Positions 4,657-61,905 of a stretch of DNA of 64,000 bases are shown one piece after another. A program made the translations under genes and the position numbers. The stretch spans positions 352,501 through 416,500 of the forward strand of contig NC_091108.1 of NCBI RefSeq assembly GCF_024713975.1, in the 5' to 3' direction. Within the stretch, counting starts at the first letter, position 1; the number at the start of each line of letters is the position of its first letter. The stretch comes from Paralichthys olivaceus. Taxonomy: Eukaryota; Chordata; Actinopteri; Pleuronectiformes; Paralichthyidae. The notes beneath the pieces are model-generated. The model saw nothing but the letters and a program-made list of their open reading frames with translations. It had not been told where the DNA came from and did no database searches.

Positions 4657-6456
4657 TCAGTGAGAAGTTGAAGCAGCTGGAGGAAGCTTGGTCCTCTTGT
4701 GTGCAGCAGGTGGACGCTCTCTGTTTCTGAGGATGTTGATCAGAGAGAGTCCACAGCAGTAAACCAGACTCTTCACCATCAGCACCGTGTAGAGCAGACA
4801 CAGCAGCTTCAGCTGCTGCTGAGACCAGGTCGGTGCTGGAGGCGTCGCTGATGGAGGAGGCGTTGATGGAGGCGTCGTTGATGGAGGAGGCGTTGATGGA
4901 GGAGGCGTTGATGGAGGAGGCGTTGATGGAGGTGGCGTTGATGGAGACGTCGCTGATGGAGGCGTCGCTGATGGAGGCGTCTTTGATGGAGACGTCCTTG
5001 ATGGAGGCGTCGCTGATGGAGGCGTCTTTGATGGAGACGTCTCTGATGGAGGCGTCTTTGATGGAGGCGTCTTTGATGGAGACGTCTCTGATGGAGGCGT
5101 CTTTGATGGAGACGTCTTTGATGGAGACGTCTCTGAAGTAGGCGTCTTTGATGGAGACGTCTTTGATGGAGGCGTCGCTGATGGAGGCGTCTTTGATGGA
5201 GGCGTCTTTGATGGAGACGTCTCTGATGGAGGCGTCTTTGATGGAGGCATCTTTGATGGAGACGTCTCTGATGGAGACGTCTTTGATGGAGACGTCTCTG
5301 ATGGAGGCGTCTTTGATGGAGGCGTCTTTGATGGAGACGTCTCTGATGGAGACGTCTTTGATGGAGACGTCTCTGAAGTAGGCGTCTCTGATAGAGGCGT
5401 CGTTGATGGAGATGTCGTTGATGGAGATGTCGTTGATGGAGGCGTTGTTGATGGAGGCGTCGGTGCTGGAAGTGCAGGAACCTCTGAAAGAATTCAAGAA
5501 GTCAGGCTCAGTCGTCTTCTCTCTCTGTCTCCACATGAGTTTTGTCCTCTCTGCTTCAGAATGTGGTCTTTCAGTTTGAGAGCAGGACGTATCTCCTCTT
5601 ATCGTTCATGTTCAGATTGTAAGATGCTTTCACTCTAAACCCCACATTCACACTCAAACAGCCCTGCTTGTGCTCTATGTGTCTGTGGCTCTGACAGCTG
5701 CAGCTCCAGCTTCTCCTCGTGTTCACGTTGTTCTGTGCACCTGAAACTTCTGCTCTCAGATTGATTTGTGTTTGATTTGTCCAAATGTCCCAACCACTAG
5801 AATTCCAGGTGTGATGTTGACAAATCAAGTTGTCTCGTCCTTGTGTGTGCGTTCGTGTCAACATCTTTGAGAGTGCTGGACCGGCAGCTAATTAACCCGG
5901 GTTCACGCACTCCCGCCCTGCACGGCTCCATCATGACACCGGCCTCCTGTCAGAGGAAAGCTAAAGCTGAGATCCTTGTTCTGACTCAGTCTGAGCACAA
6001 GCAGAGGCTTTCTGAGCGCTAGCGCAGGGTTTTGAACGAAAGCTTTCCAAAGTGTGAAATTAATAAGTCCTGCTCTCAAACTGAAAGACCACGCTCTGGA
6101 ATAAAGAGACACAGACATGAAGCTCAACACAGTCACCAAACCTCCTTCACCTTGCTCTGCCGCGGCCTCCACCCGGCCTCCCTCATGCCTGACGTTGCAG
6201 CGGTATTTGTACGTGTAGGATGCGTCCCGGTCAACCACCATGATGGCGGCGGTGCGTTCTGGCACCCTGAGCTCCAGCTGCTCTCCCTGAGCAGAGGTCA
6301 GGTCCTCCAGAGGACCACCCTCCTTCTGTCTCTTCCAGGAGAAGTGGACCAGAGGAGGAGACATGTTGGAGGCCACACACAGCAGGACGCTCTTCCCGTC
6401 CAGGGCTCTGGATGCTGCCGGGTACACGCTCACCACCGGCTTCACCACCTGCTTAT
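4657..6456 (-). CDS. TRGC: T-cell receptor gamma constant gene with expanded stalk
   Basis: Constant region of the TCR gamma chain, a membrane antigen receptor that pairs with delta and with CD3. Exon 1 (6456-6151, 306 bp) is a C1-type Ig domain starting DKQVVKPVVSVYP. It has the disulphide cysteines in LLCVASN and YRCNVRH and the core tryptophan in HFSWKRQ. Exon 2 (5483-4657, 827 bp) starts after TTCTTTCAG in phase 1. It encodes a Pro/Ser/Thr stalk of about 40 pentapeptides (PPSKT, SPSET, PPSAT) and then the transmembrane segment LLCLLYTVLMVKSLVYCCG. The segment carries the single lysine in a KSLVY context used for CD3 assembly. A short tail ends AASTSH and stop. The J splice (ACA G|AT) is in frame. 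The odd points are the very long stalk and the absence of any cysteine in it. A beta constant gene is the main alternative, but the transmembrane sequence fits teleost gamma better. Confidence 0.9.
4836..5460 (-). repeat. 15-bp coding minisatellite in the TCR-gamma stalk exon
   Basis: About 40 tandem copies of a 15-base unit (plus strand GATGGAGGCGTCTTT with variants). The unit length is a multiple of three. I followed the codons of the constant-gene frame from 4850 to 5483 and saw no stop or frameshift. Long open frames in other frames and on the plus strand (MLEASLMEEALME-type) follow from the same periodicity and are not thought to be genes. Confidence 0.95.
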
Positions 6457-7585
6457 CTGAACAACACACATGAACAGCAGCTCTTCACAGTCTGATCCTG
6501 GAAACACCTCATCAATACACCACATATAGATTCACCTGCTGTGCTGCACGGCATCGTTATATATTATTACATCATCAGAGACACAGTCACAGCCGTTCAA
6601 CTCCATTTGATCTGAAACAGATTTCATCACTGTTTCTATTGTAAATGTGTGTACATGTTCTCTTTAAATATAAATATAGATATAAATACTACAGGACTTT
6701 GTTGCTCATATACTTTGTTGATATTTATAATTACACAGTGTTTTTATATATTATACAATAATAATAATTTCTTCATATATAATTTTAAAAATATTTATTT
6801 TGTGTCGGTTTAGTTCTAAATATTTATAATTACATGATTCGTGTATTTACACTAAAAGTTCCGTCATTTAACTTTTAACAAATTCTACATCAAACCAAAT
6901 ATAATTGTGGACCAAGAAATATTCAAGTCATTTAAAGAATATTATCATAAAACAAATATTTGGGATATAATGAAAAACATAGAATCTATTTGTCTTTAAT
7001 TTATTCCAAATATATTTTTCATTATTGTGAATAAAAAATACACATTCACCATTAAAGAGCAATTACATTCATCAAAACATCTGTGACGTTAAATCCTACA
7101 TGTATTTACTGTGAGTCAGTAAAATACTTCATCGTATACATTGATATATATCAGCAGGCACTATATCAAAAACCTAAATATCAGGTTTAAACAACTTTTA
7201 CAATATTGAAGTGGATTTTTTGTTTTTGTGAAATGATGATTTCATGTAAAATATTTATCAGAGACAACAACTTTGTTAATTTGGTATTTTTGAAGTTCTA
7301 TTTAAAGTTTCAGGAGCTTGAATGTAAAGACTCGAAGTGGACGGAGCAGGAGAATGTTTGACGGCGTTGAAGTGTGAATTTATTTCAGGACGAGGAAAGA
7401 AAACTCTGATTCGTTCTGCAGCAGCTGAAGAGAATCCAGAAAACGTTTCAGACTTTTTAGAATCTGAACAAACCTGAAGCAGAAAAAGAGAATTTGTCCT
7501 AACGAGGAAAAATCTCCACGTTTAAACACTTTCAATCTGATTTCAACAATAAAACGAGTGAAGGGAAATAAAAGTGTTTTCTTAC
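6457..7585 (-). other. TCR-gamma J-C intron, AT-rich
   Basis: This is the intron between Jgamma (donor at 7585) and the constant domain (acceptor at 6457). The stretch 6640-7320 is strongly AT-rich. No further J segment or second constant exon was seen. A T-cell enhancer could lie here, but nothing in the sequence proves it. Confidence 0.6.
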
Positions 7586-7628
7586 CTGTTACAAACAGTT
7601 TAGTTCCAGAGCCAAAGAGCCAAAGATC
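7586..7628 (-). CDS. TRGJ: TCR-gamma J segment
   Basis: A 43-base joining segment reading DLWLFGSGTKLFVT plus one base, then donor GTAAG. The FGSGT motif is the standard J turn. It is flanked by a perfect 12-RSS. The last base joins the constant exon as G|AT. This is the only J seen between Vgamma and Cgamma. Confidence 0.93.
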
Positions 7629-7656
7629 CACAGTGAAAGAGACTCAGACAAAAACC
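7629..7656 (-). promoter_or_regulatory. 12-RSS of Jgamma
   Basis: On the minus strand the order is nonamer GGTTTTTGT (7656-7648), a 12-base spacer, and heptamer CACTGTG (7635-7629), directly against the J coding end. Heptamer and nonamer both match consensus exactly. This is the RAG recombinase recognition site. Confidence 0.95.
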
Positions 7657-8059
7657 ATCTGAGCTCAACGATGTTCACGCCAACACAACATTCATGTTCC
7701 CTCAGGATGAACCGCACCGACTCTGAGGAGCCTCAGACTCTTCATGTAGCGCCACCATCAGGTCAAACTTTCATTCTGTCCCATACTTTCAGAACTCAGC
7801 TGGTCTTTGTGTTCAGTGATTAGAAGCTAATATTAGCATGTTCGGTTCAGGTTGTAGGCGGGTATAGTCGACATGATGATGTCATGATGATGTCATAACA
7901 TTACATCACAAGTGTAGCGACCAATGAGACGCAGCTTTTCAGGATTAACCATCATTTCTCCCCATGTGCTAGAGATGATGATGAGGTCATTACTACGATA
8001 TGAAAAGTTAGCGATGTTGCTCCGGATGATTTTCATGTTTCACGTGATTTTATGAATTT

Positions 8060-8560
8060 AGTTACTTTTCTCTTCTTCTGGTTTCAGATCGTCCGTCTCA
8101 TCTTGCGAACACGATATCTCACGAATACCTCGACGGAATTTCTTCAAGTTTGCTACAAACCTTCACTTGGACTCAAGGATGACCTCACTAGAAGTTGGTG
8201 CTCGAAGGTCGAAGGTCAAGGTCACGGTGACCTCACAAAGCCCTCTTTGCCTCGTGAACACGTAATCTTCAGAACACCTTGAGATGATCCTTTTAGATTT
8301 GGCACAAACGTTCACTCAGATTTACAGATGAACTGATGAGATGTTGTCCTCGAAGGTCGAAGGTCACTGCGGCCTCACATCTGTAACACGATATGTCAAG
8401 TCTGTCCAGAGAACGTCTTCATGTTTTGACCAGTTATCACTGTCAGAGGTCAAAGGTCACAGCGAGCTCACATTGATGTGAATGTAAGATGTCGGGAACA
8501 GCTGGAGGGACTGAAGGTGTCCTGGTTGGTGGAGGTCTACGACCTCAGCACAGTGATTCT
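8060..8560. repeat. Interspersed repeat with AAGGTCGAAGGTCA motifs
   Basis: A teleost repeat recognised by internal similarity: the pattern of a surface-cleavage-like lead, 'GAATTTCTTCAAGTTTG', 'TTCACTTGGACTCAAGG', then GGTCAAGGTCACNGTGACCTCA. It recurs at 27330-27570 and 39640-39840. The frames here are not thought to be genes. The class is unknown to me. Confidence 0.7.
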
Positions 8561-8938
8561 AGTTCTTCTTGGTCCTCTCCTTCTCCACCAAGGTGAACCT
8601 GCTGTCGGTTAAACTAGCGAACGCGTTATTTGCAGAAGACTTGTTTTAATGGTCACGATGCACCGGTTGGTCTTATTGGTCGAGTTGGTCACGATTAACG
8701 TTGGCGGTTCTTTCTTCCAGATCAGCAAAGTGTTGGTGTGAGGGTTGAACTCAGATGAGACGCTCTGATTGGCTCTTTAAAGGGCGGTGATGGAGAAGGT
8801 TCGTCTGTGGAACGACAGCAAAGCTGCTGAAATGTCACTAAACGAGTCTTGAGAACATGAAGGTGGAGAACAACTGTCGGATGGAGGTGAAACAAGTGAA
8901 GCTGTGGTTTACTTCTCTCTTCCTCTGCTCCTCATGCT

Positions 8939-8976
8939 GCTTTTTGTTCAGGCTGCACAGATCATGTCTCACTGTG
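8939..8976 (-). promoter_or_regulatory. 23-type RSS of Vgamma
   Basis: Heptamer CACAGTG (minus, 8976-8970) directly follows the V coding end. A 22-base spacer and the nonamer ACAAAAAGC (8947-8939) come next. With the 12-RSS at Jgamma this satisfies the 12/23 rule for direct V-J joining. Confidence 0.92.
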
Positions 8977-9420
8977 TGCTACCATCTTTCAAACAGACGC
9001 AGTAGTACGAGGCTGAATGAACGGATTTAACTTTCTTTATCTTCAACTCATAGCTGTTGGGTTTTCTCTCAGCTGTGAAGTCGTCTTTCTGAGGATGACT
9101 GTAACCAAAATCAGTAGAACCATCCCTCTTTTCAACACGAAAAATCAGTGTGAATGTCCCTGTGTCTTTCTTCTGGTACCAGAATACATATTCATAACAC
9201 TGATCAGTTCCTCCACATCTGAACGAGGCCGTTCCACCAACACTGCTGGTCAATGAAAACTCGTCCTGAATCAGCTCTGCTGCCATGGTAACCAGCGCTG
9301 TGGACAGACAGATGGACGGAGGTGAGTGTGGCGGTGAGGTGGAGTTTGTTTGCTCCTGATTGGCTGGAAACACTCACCTGAACACAGGCAGCACAGAGCA
9401 GCCGCCGGGAGGAGAAGCAT
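8977..9420 (-). CDS. TRGV: TCR-gamma V gene
   Basis: Variable gene of the gamma chain, with two exons. The leader exon 9420-9378 encodes MLLLPAAALCCLCS, a hydrophobic signal peptide, and splices at CAG|GTGAGTG. The V exon 9297-8977 starts after TCCACAG. The V domain shows the first cysteine in ASFRCGG, the core tryptophan in YVFWYQKK and the second cysteine in SASYYCVC. It has no stop and ends directly at a 23-type RSS, so it looks functional. The same orientation as Jgamma and Cgamma, 1.3 kb upstream of J, makes a minimal V-J-C cassette. It is the only V gene I find in the window. Confidence 0.92.
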
Positions 9421-40829: not shown

Positions 40830-41734
40830 GTGAGTCCACTCTGCTCATGAGACCAGTCTCAGTCTGAAAATGATCTAATTTGAATTCAGAGCCTGAAAAC
40901 TTTTTGAGTCTTAAACTAAATGTGCTGTAAAAATAATCATGTTGGTTATAAATGTATATTAATATATAATAAATAAATAGTGTTTAATATTCATGAACTT
41001 ATGACAGACTTAATATTTTAAATGTGTTGAAGCCAAAGCAGTTTTAAATATCCACAGAGAAATAATACTTTATGTCAAATACCAGTTTATAAATATGTAA
41101 ATACAGTACAAATTAAATTCAAATGTTAATACACCAATGTTTAAAATGTACAAACATTATTATTAATAAAGTTCATATTGAACGAGAAAAGAAAAATGTA
41201 CAGAAATTGATCCAATAAATGAGTAAAATAGATTTTTATTGTATAAATATCTGTGATGTAAAATTCCTCTTCATGCAGATGATACTAAGTTTGTTTGGAC
41301 AAAGGTTCATCGTTGTAATTATTAATATTTAAAGCTCATGATTATTAAATATTCATCAGTGATTCCAGATAAAGGAGAAAATATATTTGGTTTCACATGA
41401 AAAGCTCAGAAATATGGAATCAACCAGTTAAAACAGTTTTTCACACAGAAAGTTATAAACTTATATCTTAGATTATAGATTATTTATTAACTGAGACTCA
41501 GATATTCACTGAATCACTGAACAATTCACCAATACGATAAATATAAAATCCTGTGACAATAAATAAAACATGACATAATCGACATTTTCACATGAGAAGA
41601 CTTTTCATCAACTGACCGGTCGTTACCACAGAAACTTATCAAGTTGGATTCAGGACAAAATATATTTAATCATCTTTATGTAAAAATCAGATAAATGTTT
41701 GAACGTGTGAGCGATGTTTCTGTTTCCTGCTCAG
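40830..41734 (+). other. TCR-delta J-C intron, AT-rich
   Basis: About 900 bases of AT-rich intron. No second Jdelta with RSS and FGxG was found. A delta enhancer would be expected around here in other vertebrates, but I see no proof. Confidence 0.55.
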
Positions 41735-42294
41735 ATCTGTCTCCTGTGAAGCCGAGTCTGTCTGTCCTCAGTCCTCTGGACCCTGGGGGCCCGCGTGTTT
41801 GTCTGGCGGCTGGTTTCCGTCCACAGGAAGTTGCGATGGTTCTGAATGGTTCCAACTCTATAGACATCAGTGAAGAAGAAGCCGTCGCGTCCCTGCGACA
41901 CAACAGCTTCTTCTTCACTGGATTCAGTGACGGAGCCATTTCCTCCTGTGAGATGAACGACGTGTCTTCAAGCAACGACCACGGTACGAATTCAAACTTT
42001 TTAAACTGTTCTTAACTTTTTAAAACAGTTTTTTACTTTTTCAAACTGTTCCAGACTTTTAGAAACTTTTCAAATTGTTCCTAACTTTTCAAACTTTTCA
42101 AACTCTTCCAGACAGTTTTGAACCGTGTCACATGATCAGAAAGTTGTCCATCACTGATCAATAAGTTGTTTTTGTCCCGTTCAGAAAACGTCAGGTTCAA
42201 CTCGTACCTGCTGCTGTTGAACGCAGCTCGAGTGATGTTCACCAAGATCGTGGCGTTTACCAGCGTCCTGACCATCAGAACGCTGCTCGCATGA
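41735..42294 (+). CDS. TRDC: T-cell receptor delta constant gene
   Basis: Two exons. Exon 1 (41735-41983, 249 bp) encodes a short Ig constant domain: DLSPVKPSLSVLSPLDPGG, first cysteine in RVCLAAGFRPQ, second in AISSCEMND. It lacks the core tryptophan (MVLNGSN), as alpha and delta constant domains of fish often do. Exon 2 (42185-42294) starts ENVRFNSYLLLLN and holds the transmembrane segment AARVMFTKIVAFTSVLTIR. The R-x4-K pair is the basic-residue signature used by TCR alpha and delta chains to bind CD3. The protein ends TLLA. The family is alpha/delta by this signature. Delta is chosen because two D segments and one J lie just upstream and the alpha J cluster lies downstream, the normal vertebrate order. 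Confidence 0.9.
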
Positions 42295-46689: not shown

Positions 46690-48294
46690 ATGTCTTCGGT
46701 TCAGTGTTTGAGAGAGTTTGTCAACGAGAGACTAACTGCTGCTGCTGAAGACATCTTCAGAGTCTTCGAGCAAACTATCGTCGAGTACGAGGAAGAGATC
46801 GATCGACAGAGAAGACTGTTGGACATCGTTTGGAAACCTGAGATCAAGCTACACAGGACAGGTGAGGACAAGCTGAATGGACTTAATGACACAGGACAGG
46901 TGAGGACAAGCTGAATGGACTGAATGACACAGGACAGGTGAGGACAAGCTGAATGGACTGAATGACACAGGACAGGTGAGGACAAGCTGAATGGACTGAA
47001 TGACACAGGACAGGTGAGGACAAGCTGAATGGACTGAATGACACAGGACAGGTGAGGACAAGCTGAATGGACTTAATGACTCAGGACAGGTGAGGACAAG
47101 CTGAATGGACTTAATGACACAGGACAGGTGAGGACAAGCTGAATGGACTTAATGACACAGGACAGGTGAGGACAAGCTGAATGGACATCATCACCAGCAG
47201 GGGGCGGTCTGAAGAAGAGTCAGCAGCATGTGATGAGCGGAGGTGTGACGGTGGAACATGTGTGACGGTGGAACATGTGTGACGGTGGAACATGTGTGAC
47301 GGTGGAACATGTGTGACGGTGGAACATGTGTGACGGTGGAACATGTGTGACGGTGGAACATGTTTGATGCCACACACACAATCACTCTGAAAAGAACCTG
47401 CTCGTCCATAACACTTTTTTTTTTCTGGTTTCAGGTCTTCACAGTCCAGAGCTCCCTCAGCAACATGTCTGTAAGGAGGAGGAGGAGGAGGAGGTTCTCA
47501 CTGACCAGGAGAGGAACCCCAGTCTGGACCCCCTTGGTCCAGAGCCTCCACACATTAAAGAGGAGCAGGAGGAGCTCTGCACCAGTCAGGAGGGAGAGCA
47601 GCTCGTGCTGAAGCAGGAGATCCAGACCTTTATGTTGACGTCTACTTATGAGGGAAGCGAGCACAGTGAACCAGAAGCAAACAGTGAGCAGCAGCTCCTC
47701 TGTCACAGCTCTGCTGGAGCTGAGAGCCAAGATCAGAGAGGACGTGAGCATGTGGACCCAGGAGCCACTGGAAATGAAGAGTCCCAGAGAAACAAGAGAC
47801 GTCATAGAGACAGTGGAGACAACTGTCCCCCAACCCTGAGTCCCTGCAACACTCACACAGGTAAGAAGACTTCAAAATGTGACACTTGTGGAAAAGCTTT
47901 TCGAAGTAACTCTGACTTGAAGAGACATATGAGGATCCACACGGGGGAGAGGCCGTATTCTTGTGAAATATGTGGGAATATATTTATTCAGAAAACAAAC
48001 TTGCAACAGCACATGAGGATTCACACGGGGGAGAAGCCGTACCTCTGCAAGAGATGCGGGAAAAGATTCAGACAAAATTCAGCGTACAGAATTCACGAAA
48101 GAATCCACACGGGTGAAAAGCCGTATACTTGTGACGTCTGTAGGAGGAGTTTCAGTCAGACATCACACTTAAAGAGTCACATGAGAATTCATACAGATAA
48201 GAGTCCAGTGTTCCCCCCTTCTGACTCTGTTCTGTCTCCAGCTCCTGAGGGATTCGCTGCTAAATGCTCAGCTGTGTTCACTGTTTCCTGCTGA
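46690..48294 (+). CDS. C2H2 zinc-finger protein with four fingers
   Basis: A probable nuclear DNA-binding protein. Exon 1 (46690-46861) reads MSSVQCLREFVNERLTAAAE and ends WKPEIKLHRT, a conserved N-terminal block of teleost zinc-finger genes (amphipathic helix EYEEEIDRQRRLLD). Exon 2 (47435-48294) joins as G|GT and first gives an acidic linker (CKEEEEEEVLTDQE). Four tandem fingers follow from about residue 206 to 310: CDTCGKAFRSNSDLKRH, CEICGNIFIQKTNLQQH, CKRCGKRFRQNSAYRIH and CDVCRRSFSQTSHLKSH, with TGERPY/TGEKPY linkers. If the first donor is used the protein has 343 residues. The donor of exon 1 is repeated nine times in a minisatellite, so the true donor is ambiguous; the first gives the expected sequence. 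The gene sits between TRDC and the alpha J cluster. It lacks a KRAB or BTB domain. Confidence 0.85.
46852..47190 (+). repeat. 38-bp minisatellite carrying nine splice donors
   Basis: The unit starts GTGAGGACAAGCTGAATGGA and continues CTTAATGACACAGGACAG, 38 bases. GTGAGG occurs at 46862 and then every 38 bases to 47166. Each unit repeats the end of exon 1 (CACAGGACAG) and its donor. Confidence 0.95.
47242..47361. repeat. 17-bp minisatellite in the zinc-finger intron
   Basis: Seven copies of GTGTGACGGTGGAACAT, about 75 bases upstream of the exon 2 acceptor. Confidence 0.95.
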
Positions 48295-50384: not shown

Positions 50385-50995
50385 AGCGCAGACCGGAAGT
50401 GTTAGCATGGCTAGCTGTGTGGATGTGTGCAGCTGAAGACGATGGTGTCTTCGTGTCGCAGATAAATATTTGAGTGTTAATGAAGCAACAATGTCTTCGG
50501 TTCAGTCGAGGACAAGCTGAATGGACTTAATGACACAGGACAGGTGAGGACAAGCTGAATGGACCTAAAGACACAGGACAGGTGAGGACAAGCTGAATGG
50601 ACTTAAAGACACAGGGCAGGTGAGGACAAGCTGAATGGACTTAAAGACACAGGACAGGTGAGGACAAGCTGAATGGACCTAAAGACACAGGACAGGTGAG
50701 GACAAGCTGAATGGACTTAAAGACACAGGACAGGTGAGGACGGGTTCAGAGAGGAAGTGAGCCTGTGGACCACAACTGTCCCAACACAGAGTCACTGCAA
50801 CACTCAGGTAAAAACACTTGATGTGATCGTAGACTGTACAGAAAGGGGATGAGTCACACAGAAGTCATGGTGGGGAAAGTTTCACACTTCCTGTTTCTTG
50901 AAGGATCACGTGATGAGTCACAGAGGTGAGAAGCCGTGCAACACACATTCATCCAGAAAGTCCCGGTGACCGACCTGGATGAGAGCAGGTCTGAC
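50385..50995 (+). pseudogene. Broken second copy of the zinc-finger gene
   Basis: 50385-50507 is nearly identical to 46587-46706: the same CGCAGACCGGAAGTGTTAGC leader and the start MSSVQ. Exon 1 is then cut after 16 bases and fused to the donor minisatellite (50508-50745, six GTGAGG copies). Fragments of exon 2 follow (AGAGAGGAAGTGAGCCTGTGG, ACAACTGTCCCAACAC, CTGCAACACTCAGGTAA). Last comes a trace of a finger linker (CACAGAGGTGAGAAGCCGTG). It cannot encode the protein. Confidence 0.85.
50508..50745 (+). repeat. 38-bp donor minisatellite, pseudogene copy
   Basis: Six units of the same 38-base repeat as 46852-47190, with AAAGACACAGGACAG variants; donors GTGAGG at 50544 and every 38 bases to 50734. 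Confidence 0.93.
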
Positions 50996-53353: not shown

Positions 53354-53416
53354 TGAATACTGGAGGTTATGAAAAGATCGTGTTTGGAAGTGGAACCAGA
53401 GTAATCATTGAACCCA
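53354..53416 (+). CDS. TRAJ: TCR-alpha J segment 4 (type A)
   Basis: Reads NTGGYEKIVFGSGTRVIIEP plus one base, donor GTGAGT. RSS: nonamer AGTTTGTGT (53326-53334), spacer TGGGATGTTTCA, heptamer TGTTGTG (53347-53353). It is the first member of the TRVIIEP family and stands at the head of the satellite array. Confidence 0.9.
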
Positions 53417-53917
53417 GTGAGTACTGAGATATATTTATATATATATATATATAATGTATATCTTTAAACACTAAGTATTATATATGAAGTGAACCAGAGT
53501 AATCATTGAACCCAGTGAGTACTGAGATATATTTATATATATATATATATAATGTATATCTTTAAACACTAAGTATTATATATATAAAGTGAACCAGGTT
53601 AATCATTGAACCCAGTGAGTACTGAGATATATTTATATATATATATATAATGTATATCTTTAAACACTAAGTATTATATATAAAGTGAACCAGAGTAATC
53701 ATTGAACCCAGTGAGTACTAAGATATATTTATATATATATATATAATGTATATCTTTAAACACTAAGTATTATATATAAAGTGAACCAGAGTAATCATTG
53801 AATCCAGTGAGTACTGAGATATATTTATATATATATATATAATGTATATCTTTAAACACTTAGTATTATATATAAAGTGAACCAGAGTAATCATTGAATC
53901 CAGTGAGTACTGAGATA

Positions 53918-53977
<60 letters not shown>

Positions 53978-54605
53978 GTATATCTTTAAACACTAAGTAT
54001 TATATATATATAAAGTGAACCAAGTAATCATTGAACCCAGTGAGTACTGAGATATATTTATATACATATATATATATAATGTATATCTTTAAACACTAAG
54101 TATTATATATATATATAAAGTGAACCAAGTAATCATTGAACCCAGTGAGTACTAAGATATATTTATATATATATATAATGTATATCTTTAAACACTAAGT
54201 ATTATATATAAAGTGAACCAGAGTAATCATTGAACCCAGTGAGTACTGAGATATATATATATATATATATATATAATGTATATCTTTAAACACTAAGTAT
54301 TATATATAAAGTGAACCAAGTAATCATTGAACCCAGTGAGTACATATATAGATTATATAACTCCCTTTATATGGAGGCTCTATGTTGTAATACATATCAT
54401 CAGTAATAGATTGTATTCAGTGTCTGTTATGTCACTGTGAGCATTTTATTTATAGCACACGATATTAGAAATGTTCTTCATGAAAACTAGCTTCAGATAT
54501 TACAGTTGTGATGTTCTGTTCATAGCGTTAAAGTAAAATTGTGTGTTTTTTACATGAAGTCTGGTTGAGGAGGTCACAGTTTGTGTTGGGATGTTTCATG
54601 TTGTG

Positions 54606-54665
54606 TGAATACTGGAAGTGATAAGATCGTGTTTGGAAGTGGAACCAGAGTAATCATTGAACCCA
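54606..54665 (+). CDS. TRAJ: TCR-alpha J segment 5 (type A)
   Basis: Reads NTGSDKIVFGSGTRVIIEP plus one base, donor GTGAGT. RSS: nonamer AGTTTGTGT (54578-54586), a 12-base spacer, heptamer TGTTGTG (54599-54605). It is one codon shorter than segment 4. Confidence 0.9.
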
Positions 54666-55142
54666 GTGAGTACTGAGATATATATATATATATTTATATA
54701 TATATATATAATGTATATCTTTAAACACTAAGTATTATATATATATAAAGTGAACCAGGTTAATCATTGAACCCAGTGAGTACTGAGATATATTTATATA
54801 TATATATATAATGTATATCTTTAAACACTAAGTATTATATATATATAAAGTGAACCAGGTTAATCATTGAACCCAGTGAGTACTGAGATATATTTATATA
54901 TATATATATAATGTATATCTTTAAACACTAAGTATTATATATATATAAAGTGAACCAGGTTAATCATTGAACCCAGTGAGTAGTGGTAAAAGTTATACAT
55001 ATTATTTATATGAATAATAAATACACCTAGTATTAGAATCTTTACTTTATTTATAGTCTAAATGTAAAATGGAATTTTTTAAATGAGGTTTGGTTTTAGA
55101 TCACATCACAGCTGAGTTTGTGTTATGAAGCTTCATGTTGTG

Positions 55143-55202
55143 TGAATTATGGAAATCAGAAGATGATCTTTGGAAGTGGAACCAGAGTAATCATTGAACC
55201 CA
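55143..55202 (+). CDS. TRAJ: TCR-alpha J segment 6 (type B)
   Basis: Reads NYGNQKMIFGSGTRVIIEP plus one base, donor GTGAGT. RSS: nonamer AGTTTGTGT (55115-55123), spacer TATGAAGCTTCA, heptamer TGTTGTG (55136-55142). The spacer and upstream flank differ from type A and define a second lineage. Confidence 0.9.
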
Positions 55203-56391
55203 GTGAGTACTGAGATATATATATATATAATCTATATCTTTAAACACTAAGTATTATATATATATATAAAGTGAACCAGAGTAATCATTGAACCCAGTGA
55301 GTACTGAGATATATATATATAATCTATATCTTTAAACACTAAGTATTATATATATATAAAGTGAACCAGAGTAATCATTGAACCCAGTGAGTACTGAGAT
55401 ATATATATATAATCTATATCTTTAAACACTAAGTATTATATATATATAAAGTGAACCAGAGTAATCATTGAACCCAGTGAGTACTGAGATATACAAATAT
55501 AATCTATATCTTTAAACACTAAGTATTATATATATATAAAGTGAACCAGAGTAATCATTGAACCCAGTGAGTACTGAGATATATAAATATAATCTATATC
55601 TTTAAACACTAAGTATTATATATATATAAAGTGAACCAGAGGAATCATTGAACCCAGTGAGTACTGAGATATATATATATATAATGTATATCTTTAAACA
55701 CTAAGTATTATATATATATAAAGTGAACCAGAGTAATCATTGAACCCAGTGAGTACTGAGATATACAAATATAATCTATATCTTTAAACACTAAGTATTA
55801 TATATATATAAAGTGAACCAGAGGAATCATTGAACCCAGTGAGTACTGAGATATATAAATATAATCTATATCTTTAAACACTAAGTATTATATATATATA
55901 AAGTGAACCAGAGTAATCATTGAACCCAGTGAGTACTGAGATATATTTATATATATATATATAATGTATATCTTTAAACACTAAGTATTATATATAAAGT
56001 GAACCAGAGTAATCATTGAACCCAGTGAGTACTGAGATATATATATATATATATATATATAATGTATATCTTTAAACACTAAGTATTATATATAAAGTGA
56101 ACCAAGTAATCATTGAACCCAGTGAGTACATATATAGATTATATAACTCCCTTTATATGGAGGCTCTATGTTGTAATACATATCATCAGTAATAGATTGT
56201 ATTCAGTGTCTGTTATGTCACTGTGAGCATTTTATTTATAGCACACGATATTAGAAATGTTCTTCATGAAAACTAGCTTCAGATATTACAGTTGTTCTGT
56301 TCTGTTCATAGCGTTAAAGTAAAACTGTGTGTTTTTTACATGAAGTCTGGTTGAGGAGGTCACAGTTTGTGTTGGGATGTTTCATGTTGTG

Positions 56392-56451
56392 TGAATACTG
56401 GAAGTTATAAGATCGTGTTTGGAAGTGGAACCAGAGTAATCATTGAACCCA
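56392..56451 (+). CDS. TRAJ: TCR-alpha J segment 7 (type A)
   Basis: Reads NTGSYKIVFGSGTRVIIEP plus one base, donor GTGAGT. RSS: nonamer at 56364-56372, a 12-base spacer, heptamer TGTTGTG (56385-56391). Confidence 0.9.
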
Positions 56452-56463
56452 GTGAGTACTGAG

Positions 56464-56495
<32 letters not shown>

Positions 56496-56824
56496 TGTAT
56501 ATCTTTAAACACTAAGTATTATATATAAAGTGAACCAGAGTAATCATTGAACCCAGTGAGTACTGAGATATATATATATATATATATATAAAATGTATAT
56601 CTTTAAACACTAAGTATTATATATATATAAAGTGAACCAGGTTAATCATTGAACCCAGTGAGTAGTGGTAAAAGTTATACATATTATTTATATGAATAAT
56701 AAATACACCTAGTATTAGAATCTTTACTTTATTTATAGTCTAAATGTAAAATGGAATTTTTTAAATGAGGTTTGGTTTTAGATCACATCACAGCTGAGTT
56801 TGTGTTATGAAGCTTCATGTTGTG

Positions 56825-56884
56825 TGAATGATGGAAATCAGAAGATGATCTTTGGAAGTGGAACCAGAGTAATCATTGAACCCA
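56825..56884 (+). CDS. TRAJ: TCR-alpha J segment 8 (type B)
   Basis: Reads NDGNQKMIFGSGTRVIIEP plus one base, donor GTGAGT. RSS: nonamer at 56797-56805, a 12-base spacer, heptamer TGTTGTG (56818-56824). It differs from segment 6 by Y to D at the second residue. Confidence 0.9.
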
Positions 56885-58569
56885 GTGAGTACTGAGATAT
56901 ATATATATATATATAATCTATATCTTTAAACACTAAGTATTATATATATATATAAAGTGAACCAGAGTAATCATTGAACCCAGTGAGTACTGAGATATAT
57001 AAATATAATCTATATCTTTAAACACTAAGTATTATATATATATAAAGTGAACCAGAGTAATCATTGAACCCAGTGAGTACTGAGATATATATATATATAA
57101 TCTATATCTTTAAACACTAATTATTATATATATATAAAGTGAACCAGAGTAATCATTGAACCCAGTGAGTACTGAGATATATATATATATAATCTATATC
57201 TTTAAACACTAAGTATTATATATATATATAAAGTGAACCAGAGTAATCATTGAACCCAGTGAGTACTGAGATATATATATATAATGTATATCTTTAAACA
57301 CTAAGTATTATATATATATAAAGTGAACCAGAGTAATCATTGAACCCAGTGAGTACTGAGATATATTTATATAATCTATATCTTTAAACACTAAGTATTA
57401 TATATATATAAAGTGAACCAGAGTAATCATTGAACCCAGTGAGTACTGAGATATATATATATAATGTATATCTTTAAACACTAAGTGTTATATATATATA
57501 AAGTGAACCAGAGTAATCATTGAACCCAGTGAGTACTGAGATATATATATATAATCTATATCTTTAAACACTAAGTATTATATATATATATAAAGTGAAC
57601 CAGAGTAATCATTGAACCCAGTGAGTACTGAGATATATATATATAATGTATATCTTTAAACACTAAGTATTATATATATATAAAGTGAACCAGAGTAATC
57701 ATTGAACCCAGTGAGTACTGAGATATATTTATATATATATATATATATATATATAATGTATATCTTTAAACACTAAGTATTATATATATATATAAAGTGA
57801 ACCAGAGTAATCATTGAACCCAGTGAGTACTGAGATATATAAATATAATCTATATCTTTAAACACTAAGTGTTATATATAAAGTGAACCAGAGTAATCAT
57901 TGAACCCAGTGAGTACTGAGATATATTTATATATATATATATATATAATGTATATCTTTAAACACTAAGTATTATATATATATAAAGTGAACCAGAGTAA
58001 TCATTGAACCCAGTGAGTACTGAGATATATATATATAATCTATATCTTTAAACACTAAGTATTATATATATATAAAGTGAACCAGAGTAATCATTGAACC
58101 CAGTGAGTACTGAGATATATTTATATATATATATATAATGTATATCTTTAAACACTAAGTATTATATATATAAAGTGAACCAGAGTAATCATTGAACCCA
58201 GTGAGTACTGAGATATATTTATATATATATATATATAAAATGTATATCTTTAAACACTAAGTATTATATATAAAGTGAACCAAGTAATCATTGAACCCAG
58301 TGAGTACATATATAGATTATATAACTCCCTTTATATGGAGGATCTATGTTGTAATACATATCATCAGTAATAGATTGTATTCAGTGTCTGTTATGTCACT
58401 GTGAGCATTTTATTTATAGCACACGATATTAGAAATGTTCTTCATGAAAACTAGCTTCAGATATTACAGTTGTGATGTTCTGTTCATAGCGTTAAAGTAA
58501 AACTGTGTGTTTTTTACATGAAGTCTGGTTGAGGAGGTCACAGTTTGTGTTGGGATGTTTCATGTTGTG

Positions 58570-58629
58570 TGAATACTGGAGGTTATAAGATCGTGTTTGG
58601 AAGTGGAACCAGAGTAATCATTGAACCCA
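58570..58629 (+). CDS. TRAJ: TCR-alpha J segment 9 (type A)
   Basis: Reads NTGGYKIVFGSGTRVIIEP plus one base, donor GTGAGT. RSS: nonamer at 58542-58550, a 12-base spacer, heptamer TGTTGTG (58563-58569). It is not followed by a type B partner. Confidence 0.9.
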
Positions 58630-59637
58630 GTGAGTACTGAGATATATATATATAATGTATATCTTTAAACACTAAGTATTATATATATATATAAAGTGAA
58701 CCAGAGTAATCATTGAACCCAGTGAGTACTGAGATATATATATATAATCTATATCTTTAAACACTAAGTATTATATATATATAAAGTGAACCAGAGTAAT
58801 CATTGAACCCAGTGAGTACTGAGATATATTTATATATATATATATATAATGTATATCTTTAAACACTAAGTATTATATATATATAAAGTGAACCAGAGTA
58901 ATCATTGAACCCAGTGAGTACTGAGATATATATATATAATCTATATCTTTAAACACTAAGTATTATATATATATATAAAGTGAACCAGAGTAATCATTGA
59001 ACCCAGTGAGTACTGAGATATACAAATATAATCTATATCTTTAAACACTAAGTATTATATATATATATAAAGTGAACCAGAGTAATCATTGAACCCAGTG
59101 AGTACTGAGATATATAAATATAATCTATATCTTTAAACACTAAGTATTATATATATATAAAGTGAACCAGAGTAATCATTGAACCCAGTGAGTACTGAGA
59201 TATATATATATATAATGTATATCTTTAAACACTAAGTATTATATATAAAGTGAACCAAGTAATCATTGAACCCAGTGAGTACTAAGATATATTTATATAT
59301 ATATATAATGTATATCTTTAAACACTAAGTATTATATATAAAGTGAACCAAGTAATCATTGAACCCAGTGAGTACATATATAGATTATATAACTCCCTTT
59401 ATATGGAGGCTCTATGTTGTAATACATATCATCAGTAATAGATTGTATTCAGTGTCTGTTATGTCACTGTGAGCATTTTATTTATAGCACACGATATTAG
59501 AAATGTTCTTCATGAAAACTAGCTTCAGATATTACAGTTGTTCTGTTCTGTTCATAGCGTTAAAGTAAAACTGTGTGTTTTTTACATGAAGTCTGGTTGA
59601 GGAGGTCACAGTTTGTGTTGGGATGTTTCATGTTGTG

Positions 59638-59697
59638 TGAATACTGGAAGTTATAAGATCGTGTTTGGAAGTGGAACCAGAGTAATCATTGAACCCA
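59638..59697 (+). CDS. TRAJ: TCR-alpha J segment 10 (type A)
   Basis: Reads NTGSYKIVFGSGTRVIIEP plus one base, identical in protein to segment 7. RSS: nonamer at 59610-59618, a 12-base spacer, heptamer TGTTGTG (59631-59637). Confidence 0.9.
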
Positions 59698-59709
59698 GTG
59701 AGTACTGAG

Positions 59710-59741
<32 letters not shown>

Positions 59742-60170
59742 TGTATATCTTTAAACACTAAGTATTATATATAAAGTGAACCAGAGTAATCATTGAACCC
59801 AGTGAGTACTGAGATATATATATATATATATATATAAAATGTATATCTTTAAACACTAAGTATTATATATATATAAAGTGAACCAGGTTAATCATTGAAC
59901 CCAGTGAGTACTGAGATATATTTATATATATATATATAATGTATATCTTTAAACACTAAGTATTATATATATATAAAGTGAACCAGGTTAATCATTGAAC
60001 CCAGTGAGTAGTGGTAAAAGTTATACATATTATTTATATGAATAATAAATACACCTAGTATTAGAATCTTTACTTTATTTATAGTCTAAATGTAAAATGG
60101 AATTTTTTAAATGAGGTTTGGTTTTAGATCACATCACAGCTGAGTTTGTGTTATGAAGCTTCATGTTGTG

Positions 60171-60230
60171 TGAATTATGGAAATCAGAAGATGATCTTTG
60201 GAAGTGGAACCAGAGTAATCATTGAACCCA
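60171..60230 (+). CDS. TRAJ: TCR-alpha J segment 11 (type B)
   Basis: Reads NYGNQKMIFGSGTRVIIEP plus one base, identical in protein to segment 6. RSS: nonamer at 60143-60151, a 12-base spacer, heptamer TGTTGTG (60164-60170). Confidence 0.9.
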
Positions 60231-61309
60231 GTGAGTACTGAGATATATTTATATATATATATATATATATATAATGTATATCTTTAAACACTAAGTATTA
60301 TATATATATAAAGTGAACCAGAGTAATCATTGAACCCAGTGAGTACTGAGATATACAAATATAATCTATATCTTTAAACACTAAGTATTATATATATATA
60401 TAAAGTGAACCAGAGTAATCATTGAACCCAGTGAGTACTGAGATATATAAATATAATCTATATCTTTAAACACTAAGTATTATATATATATAAAGTGAAC
60501 CAGAGTAATCATTGAACCCAGTGAGTACTGAGATATATATATATAATCTATATCTTTAAACACTAATTATTATATATATATAAAGTGAACCAGAGTAATC
60601 ATTGAACCAAGTGAGTACTGAGATATATAAATATATAATCTATATCTTTAAACACTAAGTATTATATATATATATATAAAGTGAACCAGAGTAATCATTG
60701 AACCCAGTGAGTACTGAGATATACAAATATAATCTATATCTTTAAACACTAAGTATTATATATATATATAAAGTGAACCAGAGTAATCATTGAACCCAGT
60801 GAGTACTGAGATATATAAATATAATCTATATCTTTAAACACTAAGTGTTATATATAAAGTGAACCAGAGTAATCATTGAACCCAGTGAGTACTGAGATAT
60901 ATATATATAATGTATATCTTTAAACACTAAGTATTATATATATATAAAGTGAACCAGAGTAATCATTGAACCCAGTGAGTACTGAGATATATAAATATAT
61001 ATTTATATATATATATAATGTATATCTTTAAACACTAAGTATGATATATAAAGTGAACAGGTTAATCACTGAACCCAGTGAGTACTGAGATATATATTAT
61101 ATAATGTATGTCTTTAAACACTAAGTATATATACATATATAATGTATATGTTTAAACACATTATATAACATGTACCTAAGTAAGAATCACGATCAACATA
61201 TAGACTCAAGTATTTTATACAGGCTCTTCTGAACAGAAAGCTCGATGACCTCCCTCATGTGATGTGTGTGTCAGTGCTTCAGGTTTGTGTTGGGATGTTT
61301 CATGTTGTG

Positions 61310-61369
61310 TGAATGTTGGTGTGAATAAGATCGTGTTTGGAAGTGGAACCAGAGTAATCATTCAACTCA
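61310..61369 (+). CDS. TRAJ: TCR-alpha J segment 12
   Basis: Reads NVGVNKIVFGSGTRVIIQL plus one base, donor GTGAGT. RSS: nonamer GGTTTGTGT (61282-61290), a 12-base spacer identical to type A, heptamer TGTTGTG (61303-61309). It is a diverged relative of type A outside the satellite array, possibly the older form (IIQL instead of IIEP). Confidence 0.9.
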
Positions 61370-61387
61370 GTGAGTACATATATACAT

Positions 61388-61905
61388 TATACGTGTGTCA
61401 TACGTGTGTGTTTCATACATGTGTGTTTCATACGTGTGCGTTTCATACATGTGTGTTTCATACGTGTGTGTTTCATACGTGTGCGTTTCATACGTGTGTG
61501 TTTCATACGTGTGCGTTTCATACATGTGTGTTTCATACGTGTGTGTTTCATACGTGTGCGTTTCATACGTGTGTGTTTCATACATGTGTGTTTCATACGT
61601 GTGTGTTTCATACGTGTGCGTTTCATACATGTGTGTTTCATACGTGTGCGTTTCATACGTGTGTGTGCGTTTCATACGTGTGCGTTTCATACGTGTGCGT
61701 GTCATGCGTGTGTGTTTCATGCGTGTGTGTTTCATACGTGTGTGTTTCATATGTTTGTGTCCACGTGTGCGTTTCATACGTGTGCGTTTCGTACGTTTCA
61801 TACGTGTGTGTTTCATACGTGTGTGTTTCATACGTGTGTTTCATACGTTTGTTTCATACGTGTGTGTCCACGTGTGCGTTTCATACGTGTGCGTTTCATA
61901 CGTGT
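61388..61905. repeat. 14-bp GTGTGTTTCATACG satellite
   Basis: About 37 copies of GTGTGTTTCATACG with GTGCG and ACATG variants, starting about 20 bases after the donor of J segment 12. The Cys/Phe/His/Val and Met/Lys/His/Thr frames on both strands are repeat artefacts. Confidence 0.95.

Follow-up and report, generated by a model that had tools for sequence, protein, structure and literature searches.

In Paralichthys olivaceus, a cluster of joining (J) segments, called T-cell-receptor alpha J segments (TRAJ) on the strength of their signal type, motif and order, contains a tandem array in which every unit carries a truncated J 3' end followed by its splice donor. The array lies in a window of 64,000 nucleotides (C16:352501-416500, forward strand of contig NC_091108.1, in an assembly of 588 Mb and 25 contigs, with C16:350001-352500 reading N); positions without a contig name are those of the window. 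This array is a locus-restricted minisatellite. With a probability of roughly 0.7, a J exon-intron border gave rise to its unit in a single event, and the repeat then spread by exchange, carrying the donors along as passengers.

Between 53388 and 61380, the J 3' end with its donor is present in 68 copies, comprising 9 full-length J segments and 59 truncated tails. The truncation junction, AAGTG-AACC, is common to all 59 tails and is one G short of the AAGTGGAACC found in the J segments, with unit 61051 additionally lacking one C; the commonest tail sequence is exact in 39 of the 59. The tails start inside the FGSG codons and have an AT-rich intron part 5' of them, so that all 59 are without the recombination signal sequence (RSS) and the FGxG motif, as the preliminary description of this DNA had stated along with the missing G. 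Its further claim of an intact donor in every unit holds for GTGAGTA, which is kept in 68/68 copies, but not for the longer donor 12-mer GTGAGTACTGAG, which is exact in only 57/68 (the variants are GTGAGTACATAT in 5 copies, GTGAGTACTAAG in 3 and GTGAGTAGTGGT in 3). Over 53417-61100, where GC content is 25%, GTGAGTA occurs 67 times in sense and 0 times in antisense orientation; this count is beyond chance, as first-order Markov resamples gave a mean of 1.94 and a maximum of 6. In the 51/59 units that continue to another tail, unit length is 86-138 bp with a mode of 90 (n=17). Minisatellites occupy one locus and repeat, head to tail, a unit that ranges from tens of bases up to about 100 bp; head-to-tail tandem units at a single locus are what was found here.

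The truncated tails form eight blocks from 53417 to about 61130, with 9, 3, 10, 2, 15, 8, 3 and 9 tails. Every block begins at the donor of an intact J segment. In seven blocks the last tail donor is joined to one of two intron types, A (4/8) or B (3/8), leading to the next RSS and J segment; the eighth has as its last member tail 61051, the most diverged of all, followed by the unit's own intron element. The array is discontinuous, being broken by seven J-bearing segments, four of 300 bp and three of 197 bp. The features are as follows.

53354..53416, + strand: J1 (NTGGYEKIVFGSGTRVIIEP), first array J, with a 12-spacer RSS (AGTTTGTGT-12-TGTTGTG) immediately 5'
53417..54343, + strand: array 1, J1 donor and 9 truncated J tails, the last joined to intron type A
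54606..54665, + strand: J2 (NTGSDKIVFGSGTRVIIEP), class A
54666..54982, + strand: array 2, 3 truncated tails, the last joined to intron type B
55143..55202, + strand: J3 (NYGNQKMIFGSGTRVIIEP), class B
55203..56129, + strand: array 3, 10 truncated tails, the last joined to intron A
56392..56451, + strand: J4 (NTGSYKIVFGSGTRVIIEP), class A
56452..56664, + strand: array 4, 2 truncated tails, the last joined to intron B
56825..56884, + strand: J5 (NDGNQKMIFGSGTRVIIEP), class B
56885..58307, + strand: array 5, 15 truncated tails, the last joined to intron A
58570..58629, + strand: J6 (NTGGYKIVFGSGTRVIIEP), class A
58630..59375, + strand: array 6, 8 truncated tails, the last joined to intron A
59638..59697, + strand: J7 (NTGSYKIVFGSGTRVIIEP), class A, with a 300-bp upstream segment identical to that of J4
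59698..60010, + strand: array 7, 3 truncated tails, the last joined to intron B
60171..60230, + strand: J8 (NYGNQKMIFGSGTRVIIEP), class B, with a 197-bp upstream segment identical to that of J3
60231..61130, + strand: array 8, 9 truncated tails, the outermost (61051) most diverged and continuing into intron-like sequence
61310..61369, + strand: J9 (also J61336; NVGVNKIVFGSGTRVIIQL), an array-free relative whose intron start, GTGAGTACATATATA, is like that of intron A

A 7.7-kb AT-rich repeat is difficult to assemble, and the number or order of units could be an assembly artefact. This is very improbable, since the array is anchored by 42 distinct types among 67 units and by the seven J segments within it; nor would an artefact create a common junction or the J variants.

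Searches of the whole assembly confined the unit to this locus. The J-tail pattern, with up to 3 mismatches, had 60 matches, all in the J cluster (59 in the array and J61336), and its reversed-pattern control had 0; the eight remaining copies of the 68 carry a one-base deletion and therefore escape this substitution-only search. An intron-derived pattern also had 60 matches, 59 here and one on C12 at 3 mismatches (control 0), and a 271-base probe, searched with simple repeats skipped and only the best candidates scored, had 30 matches, all within C16:405888-413885. Neither the many loci nor the very long arrays of a dispersed or centromeric satellite were found. A dispersed satellite merely interrupted by J segments, which the preliminary description had named as the main finding that would speak against its view, was rejected, as the unit is present at one locus in 588 Mb apart from the weak C12 match to its intron part. 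The 12-mer GTGAGTACTGAG alone was rejected as a marker of the array: of its 93 forward (57 in the array) and 33 reverse matches genome-wide, the 36 and 33 outside the array are no more than the control with the reversed pattern gives (43 and 46).

Derivation of the unit from a J exon-intron border is supported by the one junction in 59/59 tails, by the confinement of the unit to the locus (bar the weak match) and by the outermost unit, which runs into intron-like sequence. The unit intron matched the outermost 3' flank only (score 85, reached by 0/500 resamples). Comparison of the unit intron with intron A, intron B and the J61336 intron gave no homology, the score being reached by 293, 227 and 341 of 500 resamples, and with the regions upstream of J53383 (which is J1) and J52842 it was reached by 45 and 36 of 500. 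Introns A and B have common sequence near the next RSS (1/200 resamples), and the start of intron A resembles the outermost 3' flank (2/200 resamples). The seed may have been one tandem duplication whose ends lay at the AAGTG within the FGSG codons and near intron position +60; this would have created a direct repeat of about 90 bp. Slippage in the AT-rich part and unequal exchange could then have lengthened this repeat, and exchange of a unit with a J segment, or of one array with another, would have brought the array to neighboring J segments and multiplied J-plus-array blocks. Because each unit holds a J tail and a donor, a working J tail can survive any such exchange.

Sequence similarity among the blocks is consistent with such a history. 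The upstream segments of the class A J segments (n=4, 300 bp) are 98.7-100% identical, with 0 to 4 differing sites, and those of class B (n=3, 197 bp) are 99.5-100% identical, with 0 or 1 differing site, suggesting that J blocks were duplicated recently. The two classes are only 72.1-74.4% identical to each other in the 164 bp up to the donor, with gaps scored as differences; despite this upstream divergence, the 46 nt from FGSG to GTGAGTACTGAG are identical in all eight array J segments. The last tail and donor are the same before intron A (4/4) and before intron B (3/3), whereas the preceding units vary in number and order, and block identity therefore stops inside the arrays. Runs of the same unit types common to different arrays reached 8 units (1000 shuffles: mean 0.77, maximum 6). 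With AT runs shortened, units differed by 4.83 edits between arrays vs 4.37 within arrays, a near-equality that is expected if arrays exchange. It is most likely that the repeat helped the J segments to multiply. Each unit is homologous to the tail of every array J segment, so J segments could be gained or lost by unequal exchange; the array thus offers a concrete route for J multiplication, in which J segments could be duplicated or deleted with tails and donors intact. Tandem repeats are a feature of the wider region as well, covering 0.4-48% of 14 surrounding 20-kb bins (the last of 4 kb), compared with 1.3% of a C1 baseline that is small and non-random (eight 3-kb loci, 24 kb, surrounding matches to the 12-mer GTGAGTACTGAG).

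The donors of the array are probably passengers in the J-to-C (constant) intron, and would be weakly used if at all. Substitutions were compared in the 52/59 tails that are followed by an intron element, using the last 14 exon and 12 donor bases against 20 intron bases; this set aside the AT tracts, the exon head and six bases in the middle of the exon. Exon-plus-donor bases had 7/1352 substitutions and intron bases 9/1040 (P = 0.32), which is not a significant difference. As for the parts outside this comparison, the exon head had 0 changes in 8 bases and the six middle exon bases differ in 10/52 tails.

An alternative proposal is that U1 binds to the 59 additional donors, which would then slow J-to-C splicing or compete with it and so tune the output of the J segments 5' of them. 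Pairing of the tail donors with the U1 5' end is predicted at -7.1 kcal/mol in 56 tails and -7.3 in 3, equal to that of the array J segments' own donors, and 3.2% of 18273 GT sites in 264 kb are predicted to pair as well; the retention of GTGAGTA in 59/59 tails also fits this proposal. In mouse, one report associates an hnRNPA1 site after the Traj18 donor with J-to-C splicing, which suggests that sequence just 3' of a J donor can matter for this step (PMC10282035). The absence of significant excess conservation in the compared exon-plus-donor bases, however, argues against it, as does an in-frame TGA that lies three codons past the donor when an array J segment is extended into the array (8/8), so that reading on into the array would be destructive. 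Decoy or platform donors therefore appear unlikely. A pyrimidine-tract acceptor pattern had 0 matches in the array, where shuffles expect only 0.2. The best AG of the unit, with a pyrimidine fraction of 0.63, equals the C exon acceptor (0.63), and one TAG in intron A is at 0.68, so this measure does not discriminate. Among poly(A) signals, AATAAA occurs 3 times in sense orientation, always in intron B, and ATTAAA 0 times, against resample means of 10.7 and 8.7 from which a repeat is expected to deviate. A broader RNA role, in which dozens of donors predicted to bind U1, and separated by few poly(A) signals, would load the J-to-C intron with U1 and alter the rate or fidelity of splicing only for J segments 5' of or within the array, with length polymorphism setting J usage, seems less likely again. 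The locus provides a natural comparison for splicing, between J segments closely followed by 2 to 15 copies of the donor they carry and J segments with none, at one locus and in one kind of transcript.

The AT-rich repeats could also be read as regulatory DNA of the J cluster, serving as promoter, boundary or origin-like element, in view of their low GC content and their position inside the cluster. The motif TATATAAAG, which resembles the TATA-box consensus, stands directly at the start of 58/59 tails (58 sense, 0 antisense). It lies within the repeated unit and spans the truncation junction, however, and its number follows unit number because it belongs to that unit. Moreover, a looser TATA consensus is nearly equal on both strands (492 and 467), as AT runs give, and the stricter TATA[A/T]AAG had 0 matches. 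A regulatory element is thus hardly to be expected here.

Several observations weigh against a minisatellite seeded once by simple duplication, spread by exchange and carrying passenger donors. Introns A and B, after 7/8 blocks, do not simply continue the unit intron, and such an ending in foreign intron requires either later recombination or deletion-fusion of neighboring J segments. Past tail 61051, the intron element is followed by an apparent second copy of it, judged by eye, that is decayed and has no J tail, and then by other sequence, so that the apparently native edge may be eroded. The J1 upstream segment is only 83-84% identical to those of the class A J segments, which fits recent block duplication less well. 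Units within an array are also somewhat more alike than chance would give, and inter-array exchange is thus incomplete, although the excess is small (43/2000 permutations reach the difference). Finally, the first 8 donor bases are unchanged (0/416, compared with 9/1040 in the intron; P = 0.07, borderline, with units not independent), a weak hint that donors may have been kept.

The seed could instead have been a deletion that fused the intron of one J segment to the 3' tail of its neighbor (J1-intron-tail2-donor2-intron2), the resulting direct repeat then being expanded. This predicts, without later recombination, the tails and donors joined to another intron type in 7/8 blocks, but exchange between arrays and other J segments yields the same joins, and the last block on the 3' side has the unit's own intron at its end, which fits a simple tandem duplication. 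We regard a fusion seed as possible, if rather doubtful. The preliminary description had held that the array began by tandem amplification of a J exon-intron border; the derivation from the border stands, while simple tandem duplication is not the sole possible seed.

With respect to the cluster as a whole, scanning for a 12-spacer RSS combined with a GxG motif and a donor found at least 16 plus-strand J segments, from 52842 to C16:419775; this is a lower bound, as the scan for J segments with low RSS scores covered C16:400000-460000. The array lies 3' of 9/16 detected J segments and 3' of none of the other seven (61336 onward), and 8/16 carry an array themselves. The view in the preliminary description that about 65 such donors lie downstream of each J segment is thus not borne out. 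All nine full-length J segments of the array family have FGSG, an open frame and a donor 34 nt from the start of the F codon. Relative to the 12-spacer RSS consensus, they have directly 5' the nonamer AGTTTGTGT (8) or GGTTTGTGT (1), and in 9/9 (53354-61369) the heptamer TGTTGTG, which is off consensus except for its TGTG end. The heptamer CACTGTG is found in 3/7 other J segments of the cluster, and the nine with TGTTGTG may possibly rearrange at a low rate. About 23 bp past the J61336 donor lies a second, unrelated minisatellite (61393-61905; 35 copies of the 15-bp GTGTTTCATACGTGT), through which the J61336 reading frame stays open, and a 38-bp minisatellite unit is nearly alike at 46851-47186 and 50508-50741, about 3.3 kb apart.

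Just 3' of the J segments is a C-like exon with its acceptor at C16:420414. We take this exon, starting at about C16:420416, to be a TRAC candidate by its motifs, unconfirmed by Pfam, PDB or PF09291: no Pfam family was found at all, a PDB sequence search gave none, and a genome search with PF09291 had no match at the locus, nor in any of its 14 controls. Likewise, an immunoglobulin constant-like exon at 41695-42012 (+) is presumably a TRDC candidate by position and motifs, unconfirmed by Pfam, in which no family scored above the cut-off. Further 3' of the C exon, at C16:430000-460000, the same open frames are found several times over, in the manner of a duplicated block. The minus strand carries, at 5906-9373 and some 43 kb away from the J cluster, a V-J-C series made up of a V-set exon, a J segment with a perfect 12-spacer RSS (7616) and a C1-set exon. 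It is a probable TRG mini-cluster close to TRA/TRD; Atlantic cod has a comparable arrangement, with TRG about 80 kb from TRA/D and 21 alpha J genes (PMC13149839).

Groups of closely related TRAJ segments between TRDC and TRAC are described in channel catfish (PMC8656973) and salmonids (PMC8559430), and the cluster here, with its candidate TRDC and TRAC exons, resembles them; unlike here, truncated J tails or an array after the donor are not mentioned in the accessible portions of these two papers, and the word "repeat" has a count of 0 in the salmonid paper (PMC8559430). The channel catfish TRG locus contains a 2-kb repeat in 30 copies and so shares with the present array the expansion of a tandem repeat within a T-cell-receptor locus of a teleost, but its unit lies between V genes, and an origin from a J exon-intron border is not described in the text at hand (PMC8656973). 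A literature search, in which most subscription journals were not covered, found no report of a J-tail minisatellite.

In this array, the tail and splice donor of an antigen-receptor J segment have clearly turned into a minisatellite unit. As in gene-derived minisatellites or variable number tandem repeats, there is a tandem unit (86-138 bp), an AT-rich tract, a most diverged unit at the edge and apparent growth by unequal exchange. It differs from them in that the unit is a J tail with a 5' splice site, and in that the array is broken by intact gene segments whose own tails are homologous to the unit.

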